NCBI GenBank assembly: GCA_030019075.1
Contig: JASEHD010000011.1
Coordinates: forward strand, 1 to 39,177
Direction: 5' to 3'
Length of the DNA: 39,177 bases
Source: Bacteroidota bacterium
GTDB taxonomy: Bacteria > Bacteroidota > Ignavibacteria > UBA10030 > SZUA-254
The notes beneath the pieces were generated by a model that had not been told where the DNA came from, made no database searches, and saw only the letters and a list, made by a program, of their open reading frames with translations. This document shows positions 15,234 through 20,312 of the stretch, in pieces (positions within the stretch are counted from its first letter, which is position 1; the number at the start of each line of letters is the position of its first letter). A program made the position numbers and the translations under genes.

Positions 15234-16559
15234 TTATAGGACTTTCTCTGAATCATAATTCTCCAACAATTTGCACACTGTTCCCAGAAATGTTCCGCCT
15301 AACGCGCCATCGACGATACGATGATCAAACGCGAGCGTGAGATGTGCAATTAATCGGATTGCGATTGCATCGTATTCGCCAGAGGTGGATATTACAACCG
15401 GACGCTTCTTTATTGCACCTGTACCAAGTATTGCAACTTGCGGTTGATTGATGATTGGTATTCCAATTAAAGTGTTGAACACACCGAAGTTTGTTATTGT
15501 GAATGTCCCTCCTTCTATTTCGGATGGGACAAGCCGCTTTATTCGTGCGCGAGTCGCAAGGTCATTCAATGAACGAGCAAGTCCAACGAAATTTTTCTCG
15601 TCTGCATTTTTTATCACCGGAACGATTAAACCATTTTCAGATGCAACGGCAATTCCCAGATTGACAAATTTTTTTAGTATAATCTTATCACCATCAACCG
15701 ATGCGTTGACGAGCGGAAACTGTTTCAATGTTTTAATAACCGCATCGCAAACAAATGGCGTGTAAGTTAATTTGAACCCTTCACGTTTCTCGAACGACTC
15801 GGCATTCTTTTTTCGCGCTTTATCAACATTCGTCATGTCGCACTCATGCACCGCCCAAACATGCGGCGATGTGTTTACACTTTTCACCATATGTTCCGAC
15901 ATCTTCGCAATGACATTACTCATCTGCAAAATCTCGTATTGAGGTGAAGGATATTTCTGAGCTAAATCTCCCGACTCCACATGCTTTAACGTGGTTTCAA
16001 GGTGACCAACCTGAGTAGGGGCAGATGGCTGTGTTGCAGCTAGAGACGGTTTACCTGTTTGTCTTGTGTTTATATATGTAAGCATATCTTTTTTGGTTAC
16101 GCGTCCACCTTCACCAGAACCGGAAAGTTGCTCAAGCTCTCCCATCGAAATGCCTTCTTCATGGGCAATGCTAAGAACGAGTGGTGAATAAAATCTTCCA
16201 GTTATAGGTTTCTCGGTAGCTGTTGTTTTTGTGGATGGGGTTTGAGTTGATTCTTTTATAGGTGCTGCTATTGGTACATCGGGAAATTTTGATGGAGCTT
16301 CGATGGAGATAGCGGTGAAATCAGTTTCGATTTCAGCAATAACAGTACGAACAGTAACGGTCTTTTGCTCTTCGAATAATATTTTCGTGATTATACCGGA
16401 AGCAGGCGATGGAATTTCTGAATCGACTTTATCGGTACTTATTTCAAGAAGTGTTTCATCTTTCTTGATTTTATCACCCGGCTTTTTGTGCCACTTGACA
16501 ATTGTACCTTCGGTGAGACTTTCACCTAATTGCGGCATAACAACTTCTACTTTTGACAT
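15234..16559 (-). CDS. 2-oxoacid dehydrogenase E2 (dihydrolipoamide acyltransferase)
   Basis: 441 aa. The N-terminal lipoyl domain has the lipoylated lysine in STDKVDSE (K44). An Ala/Pro/Thr-rich linker leads to the peripheral subunit-binding domain (about 128-167, SPLVLSIAHEEGISMGELEQ then GRVTKKDML). The C-terminal acyltransferase core has the active site DHRIVDG (H413, D417). It moves acyl groups from E1 to CoA and forms the core of the complex. There is a single lipoyl domain. The substrate (pyruvate or branched-chain 2-oxoacid) cannot be fixed by eye; the fused E1 partner leans towards a branched-chain type. It starts at ATG 16559, 19 bp past the nucleotidyltransferase gene. Confidence 0.93.
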   Translation of the reverse strand: MSKVEVVMPQLGESLTEGTIVKWHKKPGDKIKKDETLLEISTDKVDSEIPSPASGIITKILFEEQKTVTVRTVIAEIETDFTAISIEAPSKFPDVPIAAPIKESTQTPSTKTTATEKPITGRFYSPLVLSIAHEEGISMGELEQLSGSGEGGRVTKKDMLTYINTRQTGKPSLAATQPSAPTQVGHLETTLKHVESGDLAQKYPSPQYEILQMSNVIAKMSEHMVKSVNTSPHVWAVHECDMTNVDKARKKNAESFEKREGFKLTYTPFVCDAVIKTLKQFPLVNASVDGDKIILKKFVNLGIAVASENGLIVPVIKNADEKNFVGLARSLNDLATRARIKRLVPSEIEGGTFTITNFGVFNTLIGIPIINQPQVAILGTGAIKKRPVVISTSGEYDAIAIRLIAHLTLAFDHRIVDGALGGTFLGTVCKLLENYDSEKVL

Positions 16560-16578: not shown

Positions 16579-17139
16579 TTATTTAATTCTACATTCTTTC
16601 AAAAGATGATTGAATATTTTTAATAGTGAAATATCTAAATTTATTTCGAATTCACTTAACCATTTTCTAATGTACCTGATATTCAACTTTGATTGTTTCA
16701 ACAAGATTGTCGAAACATCTTCAAGGTCTCTCGGGCGACCTGCAATTATTTTTTGTATGATAACATCTTCAGCGGAAGCAAAACGAATCTTTTTATTAAG
16801 TATCCGAACAAATCCAGATCTTTTCATCGCATTTCTTTCAAACATCGAATCCGAGAAAATAAAATCAATCCTAATCTGACTTTTTGGATCGATAGCTGGC
16901 ATAACATAGAATTGTTTTACAAATTTCTTCGGAGAGCGAACGAGCGATTTAAGTTTCGTATCTTTAATTAATTCCTGAATTAAAGAAAATTTTTCAATCC
17001 CAATCCCAAGAGTAATATCAATATCTTTTGTTAACCGCGGCTCACCATACTTCAATACCGCTTGACCGCCCATTATCATATATGGGATTTTCATTTCATC
17101 CAGGTGTTTGGCGGCTTTAACAATTAGTTTATCAAACAT
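16579..17139 (-). CDS. Nucleotidyltransferase-fold protein (AbiEii/DUF6036-like)
   Basis: 186 aa. The polymerase-beta type active site is complete: GG at 24-25, then D39-x-D41 in LTKDIDI, and a third acidic residue D92 in IRIDF. Near the C-terminus is the AEDVIIQKIIAGRPRDLEDV block typical of DUF6036/AbiEii-like families, some of which are toxins that modify tRNA or partner with antitoxins. Its ATG overlaps the stop of the 65-aa ORF by 8 nt, so the two are translationally coupled. The pair sits between the E1 and E2 genes, which normally adjoin. A toxin-antitoxin or small defence role is inference; a housekeeping nucleotidyltransferase role is also possible. Confidence 0.8.
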   Translation of the reverse strand: MFDKLIVKAAKHLDEMKIPYMIMGGQAVLKYGEPRLTKDIDITLGIGIEKFSLIQELIKDTKLKSLVRSPKKFVKQFYVMPAIDPKSQIRIDFIFSDSMFERNAMKRSGFVRILNKKIRFASAEDVIIQKIIAGRPRDLEDVSTILLKQSKLNIRYIRKWLSEFEINLDISLLKIFNHLLKECRIK

Positions 17140-17329
17140 TGTTTATTGCCCTCGCGAAACGGATATCAACCTCGATTCCATCCAACTTATTCTTTGAAGG
17201 AAATTTTTTCAACTTAATAGCATACATCAACAAGGCATTGACTATCTCTACATTCTGCAGATACCCCGATTTGGTTCGTTTAGTTAGATTGTTTTCAAAA
17301 ATTTTCAAACCTTTTGCATTTTTTATCAT
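17132..17329 (-). CDS. Small unknown protein coupled to the nucleotidyltransferase
   Basis: 65 aa, basic N-terminus (MIKNAKGLKIFENNLTKRTK), then a probable helix EIVNALLMYAIKLKKFP and a GIEVDIRFARAINNV end. I do not recognise the family. It lacks the Rx4-6H motif of HEPN partners. The start ATG at 17329 is 6 nt after the E1 stop, and its end overlaps the nucleotidyltransferase start by 8 nt, which supports it being a real translated gene. A role as antitoxin or cofactor of the enzyme is a guess from the arrangement. Confidence 0.65.
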   Translation of the reverse strand: MIKNAKGLKIFENNLTKRTKSGYLQNVEIVNALLMYAIKLKKFPSKNKLDGIEVDIRFARAINNV

Positions 17330-17335
17330 ATGAAT

Positions 17336-19390
17336 TTAGAAGTCCGATAGTTCTTTCAACGCATAAATTATATCTAATGTCTGAGGAAGCATTGCATTCT
17401 CAAGTGTCGGTCCGTATGGAATAGGACAATCCTTTGCGGCAACTCTCTTGATCGGAGCATCAAGTCGTGTGAATGCTTCGCTTGCAATGATCGCCGCAAT
17501 CTCAGCACCGAATCCGCCCGTCAATGTATCTTCATGAACAATTAAAACTTTTCCTGTTTTCCGCACCGAATTAAGTATCACATCTTTATCAAGAGGATTG
17601 AGTGTCCGCAGATCAACAACCTCAACACTTACGCCGCTCTCTTCCAATTTCAGAGCGGCTTCAAACGAGCGTTGTACCATCATCCCCCAAGTTATTATGG
17701 TAATGTCGTTCCCGAAGCGGACTGTTTTTGCCAAACCAAACGGGAGAAGATAATTTTCATCCGGTTCTGGGGACGCAGCAAAACTTGAACGGTATAATCC
17801 TTTATGCTCAAGGAACACGACCGGATCGTCTGAACGGCACGCTGTTTTCAGTAAACCCTTGGCATCGGCGGCATTTGAGGGAATTACAACCCGAAGACCA
17901 GGTATATGTGTGAAGAATCCATCGATCGATTGGCTGTGATAAAGACCACCATGGATATATCCTCCAACTGCCACACGGATGACCATCGGATTTGTCCATT
18001 CATTGTTTGAACGAAAACGCATCATTGCAACTTCATCCCTCAACTGCATGAAAGCGGGCCAAATGTAATCTCCAAATTGAATCTCAACAACTGGTTTATA
18101 TCCAGCAATCGATAATCCAACGGCAGTACCAATGATACTCGCCTCGGCGAGAGGTGAATTAAAAACGCGCTCCCAACCGAATTTCTTTGTCAAACCTTTG
18201 GTTGCAGTGAAAACACCACCTTTATCGCCGCCAACATCTTCTCCATAAACCAGAATTTTGGGATTGCGTTCGATCTCTTCCGCCATTGCATGATTGATCG
18301 CATCGACCATAACTATCTTACCACCTTTATGTTCCGGTTCTACAAAACCATCGACAGATATAACGGTCTTTGGTGAATAAACATACTTTAACAGATTAAC
18401 TGAATCCTGTTGAAGTTCTGTTTCAACTTCATCAGCCGCTTGATCGATTTGATTTTGAACTTCGGATTGAATTATTTTTATCTCCTCACCTGAGGCGTAT
18501 TTATTCGAGATGAGATATTTCTCAAAATTCGGTATGGGATCCCGCGCTTTGTCTCTTGTTAAATCTTCTTCACTGCGATATTTCCGTTGATCATCGGATG
18601 ATGAATGTGGAAGCAACCGTACCGTATGAGCAAGAATCAAACTTGGTCCTTCACCACTTCGTGCCTTCGCAACAGCTTCTTGCGCCACTTGATGCGAAGC
18701 AATAAAATCACAGCCATCAACTTCATACCGATTCAGTCCTTGATATCCCCGAACGACTTCGTATATCGATCCACCAGCAGTCTGTTCTTTCTTTGTTACA
18801 GAGATCGCAAATTTATTATCCTGAATAACAAAAAGCACCGGAAGTTTCTCACGCGATGCCCAATTAACCGCTTCGTGAAATTCACCTTGACTCGTTGTTC
18901 CCTCACCGGATGAAACATAAACGATATCTTTTGTGCCATCCTTCACCTGCGCAAGAGCGGTACCGACTGCTTGTAGAAATTGCGTGCCTGTAACGCTTGA
19001 TTGAGATGGAATACGCCATTTTTTGTACCCATAATTAAACGGCATGACGAAGCCGCCGCTGCTTGGTGCACTTGCCCGGTGCATCGCCTCAGCAAGTATT
19101 TCTTTTATAGTATAACCCATGCTCAAAACGTAAGCGAGATCGCGATAATATGGATACGACCAATCTTCTTCTCTTTTCAATGCGAAAGCTGTTGCCACCT
19201 GTATCGCTTCATGGCCTGAACCTCCGATATGGAAAAATATCTTACCTTGTTTGAGTAGAACTAATATCTTATCATCCGTCTTCCGAGCAGTATACATAAA
19301 CCGATATGCTTCCAACAGACGCTCTTTCGAGAGACTAATTACCTCAGATTTTTTTTCTTTTGTATCGTTTGATCTCTTCATTGAAGACAT
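17336..19390 (-). CDS. 2-oxoacid dehydrogenase E1, fused alpha and beta subunits
   Basis: 684 aa. The N-terminal half (about 20-340) is E1-alpha with the thiamine diphosphate motif, starting SSGEGTTSQGEFHEAVNW and ending IQDN. The C-terminal half (about 355-684) is E1-beta, with YGEDVGGDKGGVF, FNSPLAEASIIGTAVGLSIAG and the QLRDEVAMMRFRS helix. In most bacteria these are two genes; the single-chain form is common in Bacteroidota, where automatic pipelines often misname it. It decarboxylates a 2-oxoacid and loads the acyl group on E2. Sequence style is nearer branched-chain than pyruvate enzymes, with moderate certainty. It overlaps lipB by 13 nt. Confidence 0.93.
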   Translation of the reverse strand: MSSMKRSNDTKEKKSEVISLSKERLLEAYRFMYTARKTDDKILVLLKQGKIFFHIGGSGHEAIQVATAFALKREEDWSYPYYRDLAYVLSMGYTIKEILAEAMHRASAPSSGGFVMPFNYGYKKWRIPSQSSVTGTQFLQAVGTALAQVKDGTKDIVYVSSGEGTTSQGEFHEAVNWASREKLPVLFVIQDNKFAISVTKKEQTAGGSIYEVVRGYQGLNRYEVDGCDFIASHQVAQEAVAKARSGEGPSLILAHTVRLLPHSSSDDQRKYRSEEDLTRDKARDPIPNFEKYLISNKYASGEEIKIIQSEVQNQIDQAADEVETELQQDSVNLLKYVYSPKTVISVDGFVEPEHKGGKIVMVDAINHAMAEEIERNPKILVYGEDVGGDKGGVFTATKGLTKKFGWERVFNSPLAEASIIGTAVGLSIAGYKPVVEIQFGDYIWPAFMQLRDEVAMMRFRSNNEWTNPMVIRVAVGGYIHGGLYHSQSIDGFFTHIPGLRVVIPSNAADAKGLLKTACRSDDPVVFLEHKGLYRSSFAASPEPDENYLLPFGLAKTVRFGNDITIITWGMMVQRSFEAALKLEESGVSVEVVDLRTLNPLDKDVILNSVRKTGKVLIVHEDTLTGGFGAEIAAIIASEAFTRLDAPIKRVAAKDCPIPYGPTLENAMLPQTLDIIYALKELSDF

Positions 19391-20091
19391 TCTATTTTTT
19401 CTTTAAATAAATAATTGATAGTGGATAGGAATTCATCTTTATCTACGATTTTTGTATGAATCCCGAAAACTTCCCTGAATCGTGATGATACCGAATCTAT
19501 AACATCTTGTAAGGAGACCTTGTTCCCGAGAATTCGCTCCATCGACGTAACACCTTTATGGAAAATTCCACATGGTATGATGCGATCAAAATATGATAGA
19601 TTCGTGTTTACGTTGAGAGCAAAACCATGCATGGTGATCCACCTGCTTACCTTTACACCAATGGCGGCAATTTTATCACCGCCGACCCAAACACCTGTAT
19701 AATTTTCTTCACGATGTCCGTTGATACCGAAATCTTTCAATGTTCGAATCAGCACTTCCTCAAGATCACGAAGGTAACGGTGCGTGTCGAGATAATAATT
19801 ATTCAGATTAATAATCGGATATCCAACAAGCTGTCCGGGACCATGATAGGTGATGTCACCACCTCGATCAATATGGTAAACATCTACATCTGACAATTTC
19901 AATTCTTTTTCATCTGCGAGCAAATGCGCTTCATCTGTGTTCTTACCCAATGTATAAACATGATTATGCTCAGTAATTATGAGAACATCAGAAATCTTTT
20001 TAGAGATTTGAAGATTGAAAATCTTTTTCTGTAATTCCCATATCGGTTGATATGCTGTCAATCCGAAATTGACGGTTTGAATTTCTTTCAT
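19378..20091 (-). CDS. lipB: Octanoyltransferase
   Basis: 237 aa. Conserved blocks are HNHVYTLGK (42-50), IDRGGDITYHGPGQLVGYP (74-92) and the catalytic pair K140 (GDKIAAIGVKVSR) and C174 (IIPCGI). It transfers octanoate from acyl carrier protein to lipoyl domains such as that of the E2 encoded nearby; LipA then adds sulfur. Its 3' end overlaps E1 by 13 nt and its start overlaps the upstream 74-aa gene by 4 nt (ATGA), so all three are tightly coupled. Confidence 0.96.
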   Translation of the reverse strand: MKEIQTVNFGLTAYQPIWELQKKIFNLQISKKISDVLIITEHNHVYTLGKNTDEAHLLADEKELKLSDVDVYHIDRGGDITYHGPGQLVGYPIINLNNYYLDTHRYLRDLEEVLIRTLKDFGINGHREENYTGVWVGGDKIAAIGVKVSRWITMHGFALNVNTNLSYFDRIIPCGIFHKGVTSMERILGNKVSLQDVIDSVSSRFREVFGIHTKIVDKDEFLSTINYLFKEKIECLQ

Positions 20092-20312
20092 GAACGCAGG
20101 AACTTTTTCCGATGATCGGATAAATAATCGGTAATTTTCGTTCCTGCCGCTGCACCCGGACTTACAACCAACTCACGAGCGTATGCAACTCTAAAATCAT
20201 CTTCGGTCATCAATCCCTTTTCTTCCATTATTTTCTTCATCGCGCGAAGGTGGATGTACAACTCTTCGATAGCAAGTGTTTCGTTCGATATGTTGATGCT
20301 TTCATCTTTCAT
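20088..20312 (-). CDS. Small unknown protein upstream of lipB
   Basis: 74 aa, mostly helical and charged: a helix around IEELYIHLRAMKKIMEEKG, a short turn LMTEDDFRVAYAREL and a polar end. I do not recognise it. The ATGA overlap with lipB makes it a probable real gene of the lipoate operon. A weak resemblance of the EEKGLMTEDDF segment to nitrile-hydratase-type N-terminal helices is not enough for a name. The 106-bp gap up to lpdA holds short imperfect repeats of TACTNA type and no gene. Confidence 0.6.
   Translation of the reverse strand: MKDESINISNETLAIEELYIHLRAMKKIMEEKGLMTEDDFRVAYARELVVSPGAAAGTKITDYLSDHRKKFLRS

Follow-up and report, generated by a model that had tools for sequence, protein, structure and literature searches.

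Gene organization of the locus

The window, i.e. the whole 39,177-nucleotide stretch of DNA that was analysed, carries a 2-oxoacid dehydrogenase operon that is interrupted by two small genes, here called A and T. Reading of the open reading frames confirms the gene order fused E1, A, T, E2 on the minus strand (Table 1). The E1 protein contains the Pfam domains E1_dh, Transket_pyr, and Transketolase_C, and the E2 protein contains 2-oxoacid_dh, Biotin_lipoyl, and E3_binding. The spacing is tight, with 6 nt between the stop of E1 and A, an overlap of 8 nt between A and T, and 19 nt between T and E2. Coordinates and Pfam matches agree with the preliminary description, which had placed a 65-residue ORF and a nucleotidyltransferase gene, closely spaced, between E1 and E2.

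Because the 6-nt gap after E1 leaves little space for a promoter, A and T are likely expressed together with E1, and the pair is probably carried on the transcript of the host operon. The 8-nt overlap recurs in several homologous pairs and suggests translational coupling of the two genes. Another small ORF of the same operon (74 residues, 20088-20312 of the window, minus strand) has no Pfam match; it overlaps the beginning of the gene that follows (19378-20091), which by eye is lipoyltransferase-like.

Table 1 Features of the A–T pair, its neighbors, and the A-less T copies. Positions are those of the window unless a locus is named.
Feature	Position	Strand	Evidence
A, 65-residue putative antitoxin, first gene of the pair	17132..17329	-	ORF; homologues directly upstream of T elsewhere; dN/dS
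T, 186-residue MenT1-like nucleotidyltransferase, putative toxin	16579..17139	-	Pfam, profile match, fold model
Overlap of A end and T start, 8 nt, AATGTTTGA context	17132..17139	-	Sequence
E1, fused alpha and beta, 684 residues, upstream neighbor (host operon, outside the module)	17336..19390	-	Pfam
E2 acyltransferase, 441 residues, downstream neighbor (host operon, outside the module)	15234..16559	-	Pfam
T active-site stretch R35-L-T37-K-D39-I-D41 (MenT1 R37-F-T39-R-D41-V-D43)	17017..17037	-	Profile alignment
T D92, invariant acidic residue, RxD motif	16864..16866	-	Conservation among relatives
T K130 (MenT1 K137)	16750..16752	-	Profile alignment; 80/80 relatives
T D141 (MenT1 D152)	16717..16719	-	Profile alignment; 80/80 relatives
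A-less T copies between E1 beta and E2	L052:1844-2398 (G014); L056:5990-6547 (G002)		ORFs intact

T resembles MenT1

T matches the Pfam families DUF6036 (2e-7), AbiEii (2.6e-5), and DUF2204 (5e-5). The match to DUF6036 (PF19502) scores 31.4 bits, above the Pfam cut-off of 23.6, and the match to AbiEii is weaker (24.7 bits, cut-off 22.5). A profile of T finds MenT1 (PDB 8an4) with an E-value of 2e-11. In accordance, the five best PDB matches of the AlphaFold model of T (pLDDT 95.5) are all MenT1 structures, with a best TM-score of 0.80 and a sequence identity of ~20% in the structural alignment. The earlier assignment of T as MNT/AbiEii-like thus stands only at the level of the superfamily, and the closest solved relative is MenT1 instead. 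The structural matches include antibiotic ANTs as well, indicating that substrate specificity cannot be read from the nucleotidyltransferase fold.

The active site is shared with MenT1. Residues T37, D39, K130, and D141 of T align with residues T39, D41, K137, and D152 of MenT1 (numbering of the papers), which are the residues mutated in two previous studies (PMC10435456, PMC11375011). The MenT1 mutants D41A, K137A, and D152A are inactive on RNA, while T39 is a phosphoacceptor that is not essential for toxicity (PMC11375011). Among 80 relatives of T from named genomes, R35, D39, D41, D92, K130, and D141 are invariant, and position 37 is a threonine in 79 of them and a serine in the remaining one. 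By profile and fold, T is a putative MenT1-like tRNA-nucleotidyltransferase toxin, for which toxicity and a tRNA target are predicted by analogy with MenT1.

A is a small helical protein outside the curated families

In searches with 32 members of the A family, no Pfam (E ≤ 0.01) or NCBIfam family is matched, and comparison of A with PADLOC and PHROGs gives nothing of note. The preliminary description had recognized no type for the small partner, consistent with this result. The model of A consists of three helices (pLDDT 80, with a low pTM of 0.41), and a fold search with it finds no match in the PDB. A is nevertheless a real gene, since its family recurs directly upstream of T and its dN/dS is low. 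In closer pairs of relatives, dN/dS is 0.07-0.19 for A and T alike, indicating that both are under purifying selection.

MenA1 (Rv0078B), the antitoxin of MenT1, belongs to Pfam family PF18993, which is matched by none of the 32 members of A. When profiles of A and the MenA1 family are compared, one alignment of A gives a score higher than each of 60 column shuffles, and with a larger alignment 2 of 60 shuffles reach the score. Likewise, the similarity between A and a second partner family, 'B', is suggestive with one alignment and weaker with a larger one. A is therefore like MenA1 in size, gene order, and pairing, but the homology between the two does not reach significance, and by the Pfam profile A falls outside the MenA1 family. 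A is best read as an undescribed antitoxin family, which by analogy with the MenT1 system would neutralize T.

Other small ORFs adjoin nucleotidyltransferase genes. In the window's own genome, a small ORF precedes a nucleotidyltransferase gene at two loci (L002 and L004, on contigs C184 and C57), and these ORFs match PF18993 weakly, below the Pfam cut-off (E-values of 1e-4 and 3e-4). In a more distant nucleotidyltransferase branch (L207-L212), another ORF of ~72-78 residues lies directly upstream in most of the loci seen.

A and T are paired across many phyla

Of 391 genomes sampled from the class, 43 contain A and 37 contain a strong T. A lies directly upstream of all 23 of the 23 full-length T genes that have intact motifs and are away from contig ends, a count that includes a diverged A in genome G170. 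A scan of the GTDB species genomes with an alignment as query retrieves 311 relatives of T by one pattern, while a scan of genome contigs with the single T sequence as query gives no match. Among the best 80 of the 311 relatives, A lies directly upstream in 79 of the 79 assessable loci, the remaining one being at a contig end. The 65-residue ORF thus recurs beside such nucleotidyltransferases, a check that had been proposed at the outset. In addition, the distances among A proteins correlate with those among T proteins (r = 0.62, compared with a maximum of 0.15 over 1000 permutations).

The pairing spans more than 15 phyla and candidate phyla, plus an archaeon. The record titles of the relatives name Ignavibacteria, Neomarinimicrobiota, Acidobacteria, Nitrospirae, Spirochaetia, Deltaproteobacteria, Aminicenantes, WOR-3, Omnitrophota, Planctomycetota, Chloroflexota, Actinomycetes, Melainabacteria, Thermotogae, Candidatus Altarchaeum archaeon, and others. 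Viral contigs contain no relative of the pair, and plasmids give three weak matches. Together with the lack of a PHROG match, these results led us to reject carriage by phages or plasmids.

The pair is inserted at the E1–E2 junction

The genomes whose E2 is most similar to that of the window (88-90% identity) are G004, G013, and G007, which represent the three nearest sister genera. In all three, E1 and E2 are separated by 24 nt with no gene in between, in agreement with the initial statement that the two genes are normally adjacent. The window and these three genomes share the bases that directly follow the stop of E1 (ATT), and the E1–E2 gaps are mostly short in other members of the family too. 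A second genome (G012), which belongs to this family but to another genus, also has A and T between E1 and E2, and G002 and G014 carry T alone there. Conservation was checked across the family and the class, and the pair is not conserved at this site.

In a midpoint-rooted tree of T, the four E1–E2 copies group together (support 89/89). This grouping is compatible both with an old insertion followed by repeated loss and with one lineage reusing the site. Other genes are also seen at this junction in other genomes: a TIR-domain gene in G023 (L138:2907-3812), with a similar ORF in G028; a DUF2283 gene and an unmatched 116-residue ORF in G016 (L133:788-1313); and a PDDEXK_3 gene in G019 (L147:957-1331).

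One alternative is that T acts in metabolism or regulation by nucleotidylating part of the dehydrogenase complex, and that A serves as its adaptor. The position inside the E1–E2 operon, the tight spacing, and the presence of the pair at the same junction in G012 speak for it. Modification of the complex had indeed been offered in the preliminary description. However, the three nearest sister genera and most of the family lack the pair, and its relatives adjoin gyrB/gyrA, meaB, fmt/ppk1, cas, and hma genes. The empty junction in the sister genomes and the unrelated contexts elsewhere led us to reject a dehydrogenase role, which we regard as extremely unlikely. The best reading is that A–T was acquired between two housekeeping genes and is not part of the dehydrogenase.

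A outlasts T

Between gyrB and gyrA, A is found without T in one genome (G011), while A–T occupies this site in two genomes of the same genus (G002 and G014). Between fmt and ppk1, A is found without T in two genomes (G331 and G267), while A–T occupies the site in a third genome of that genus (G238). Several further loci hold A together with a frameshifted T. Errors in draft assemblies may explain some of the broken T genes. The converse, T without A, is seen only at the E1–E2 junctions of G002 and G014 (Table 1), and both copies lack R35, T37, and D141. That A outlasts T, and that T persists without A only when impaired, is the pattern expected from a toxin and its antitoxin. The pair in this respect behaves as toxin–antitoxin modules generally do: pairing is constant, and the antitoxin is never lost before the toxin is disabled.

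The dN/dS of the two A-less T copies is 0.13. Since they are still constrained, they may have been put to another use. They are possibly domesticated, catalytically impaired relatives of T.

The same pattern bears on whether the roles could be reversed, with A as the toxin and T neutralizing A by modifying it. Such an arrangement has a precedent in the HEPN-MNT modules, where the antitoxin MNT is a nucleotidyltransferase and the HEPN toxin is the protein it modifies (PMC11586414). The reversal predicts the opposite of what is found, since A occurs without intact T in several genomes and T without A is impaired. In addition, T resembles MenT1 and not MNT, and A has no Pfam match, HEPN included. 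We therefore consider reversed roles very unlikely, and retain A as the putative antitoxin and T as the putative toxin.

A–T occupies other junctions and defence operons

In this lineage, modules of this kind are found repeatedly at the E1–E2 and gyrB–gyrA junctions. In several families of the lineage, the gyrB–gyrA junction holds A–T or a similar pair. Within one genus, it holds A–T in G023, and a second DUF6036-type nucleotidyltransferase with another small partner in G028 and G036. In G002, it holds A–T followed by HicB/HicA. Across the gyrB–gyrA junctions surveyed (L149-L177), the inserts comprise A–T, the second kind of nucleotidyltransferase with a different ~70-residue partner, HicB/HicA, and a WG-repeat protein. 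Further A–T sites lie after meaB, between fmt and ppk1, and before rho (neighbors named by eye).

We also compared the surroundings of the pair with a background. Both neighbors are co-directional with the pair at 35 of 66 loci (loci from named genomes with both neighbors seen) and in 50 of 112 background gene triples, obtained with the same crude ORF caller. Operon embedding is therefore not clearly a property of the whole family. A family-wide preference for housekeeping operons was likewise set aside because there is no clear excess, though the tight junctions are striking in the Ignavibacteria set.

Several copies lie beside or inside defence operons. A–T is positioned between a Cas10-like gene and cmr4 (L249), between cas6b and cas8b (L251), before cmr4 (L292), after a Cas10-like gene (L279), and between hmaA and hmaB (L096). 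At L113, A alone lies beside or inside a defence operon. The CRISPR-Cas genes concerned are of type III and type I-B. The five A–T copies would fit a phage-defence or guard module for CRISPR-Cas (type III, I-B) or Hma operons, of which the window copy would be a stray, and this role could hold together with a toxin–antitoxin function. They are, however, only a handful of ~100 loci, and the window copy has no defence neighbor. As the account of the pair, a guard role is very unlikely.

Proposed function of A–T

With A as antitoxin and T as toxin, we consider it highly probable that A–T is a MenT1-type toxin–antitoxin module acquired between E1 and E2, in which function is assigned by analogy with MenT1. 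The suggestion of a toxin–antitoxin cassette that landed in an operon, made when the locus was first described, is thereby well supported: the pair is not conserved at this site across the family or class, and the ORF recurs beside the enzyme in every assessable locus.

In the proposed mechanism, A would be encoded and made first. As a small helical protein, it would bind T and close the active site. Loss or dilution of A would leave T free to extend the 3' ends of tRNAs with nucleotides (CMP in the case of MenT1), and this extension would stop translation. A might also prompt autophosphorylation of T at T37, as MenA1 does for MenT1 at T39; the conservation of T37 keeps such a MenA1-like reaction possible.

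A broader proposal is tentative, and we hold it as a possibility rather than an expectation. A might found a further, unrelated antitoxin family that controls MenT-type tRNA nucleotidyltransferases in numerous bacterial phyla and also in some archaea. The modules might partly guard CRISPR-Cas/Hma operons, and in one lineage an A-less, catalytically impaired T might have become a gene kept under constraint within the E1–E2 operon.

MenT toxins are known mainly from M. tuberculosis, and the present data place a MenT1-like enzyme with another partner in more than 15 phyla and candidate phyla. The A–T family offers a large natural panel for asking how general autophosphorylation induced by the antitoxin is, and it would allow some hundreds of functionally unassigned genes to be named. 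The locus also calls for caution, as genes inserted tightly into a housekeeping operon do not necessarily contribute to its function.

Comparison with known systems

T passes the cut-off of DUF6036, a Pfam entry that names neither function nor partner. The literature searched, with incomplete coverage, yielded no papers on DUF6036 and none on toxin–antitoxin modules between gyrB and gyrA.

The AbiE system (AbiEi-AbiEii, type IV) resembles A–T in that T belongs to the same nucleotidyltransferase superfamily as AbiEii. In contrast to AbiE, whose antitoxin AbiEi is a two-domain, DNA-binding protein (PMC7319586), the partner of T is a 65-residue protein with no Pfam match, and no AbiEi with a winged-helix domain lies upstream of T. 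T (186 residues) is also shorter than the PADLOC profiles of AbiEii (~290-310 positions). HEPN-MNT (type VII) shares with A–T the arrangement of two small genes, one encoding a nucleotidyltransferase. There, however, the nucleotidyltransferase is the antitoxin, and A is not a HEPN protein by Pfam (32 members).

The closest counterpart is MenAT1 of Mycobacterium tuberculosis (Rv0078B-Rv0078A), in which a small antitoxin gene lies upstream of a minimal nucleotidyltransferase toxin. MenA1 has 68 residues and no evident DNA-binding domain, and is mostly encoded upstream of a menT-like gene (PMC10435456). T shares the fold and the matching active-site residues of MenT1. A–T differs from MenAT1 in that A is outside the Pfam family of Rv0078B and in that the pair lies inside a housekeeping operon. 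The four MenA antitoxins of M. tuberculosis themselves represent three independent families (PMC11375011). A MenT toxin with a small upstream antitoxin is thus known already. Judging from the sources searched, which cover the literature in part, what appears to be new is the family of the antitoxin, the wide occurrence of the pairing, and the hot spots at gene junctions.
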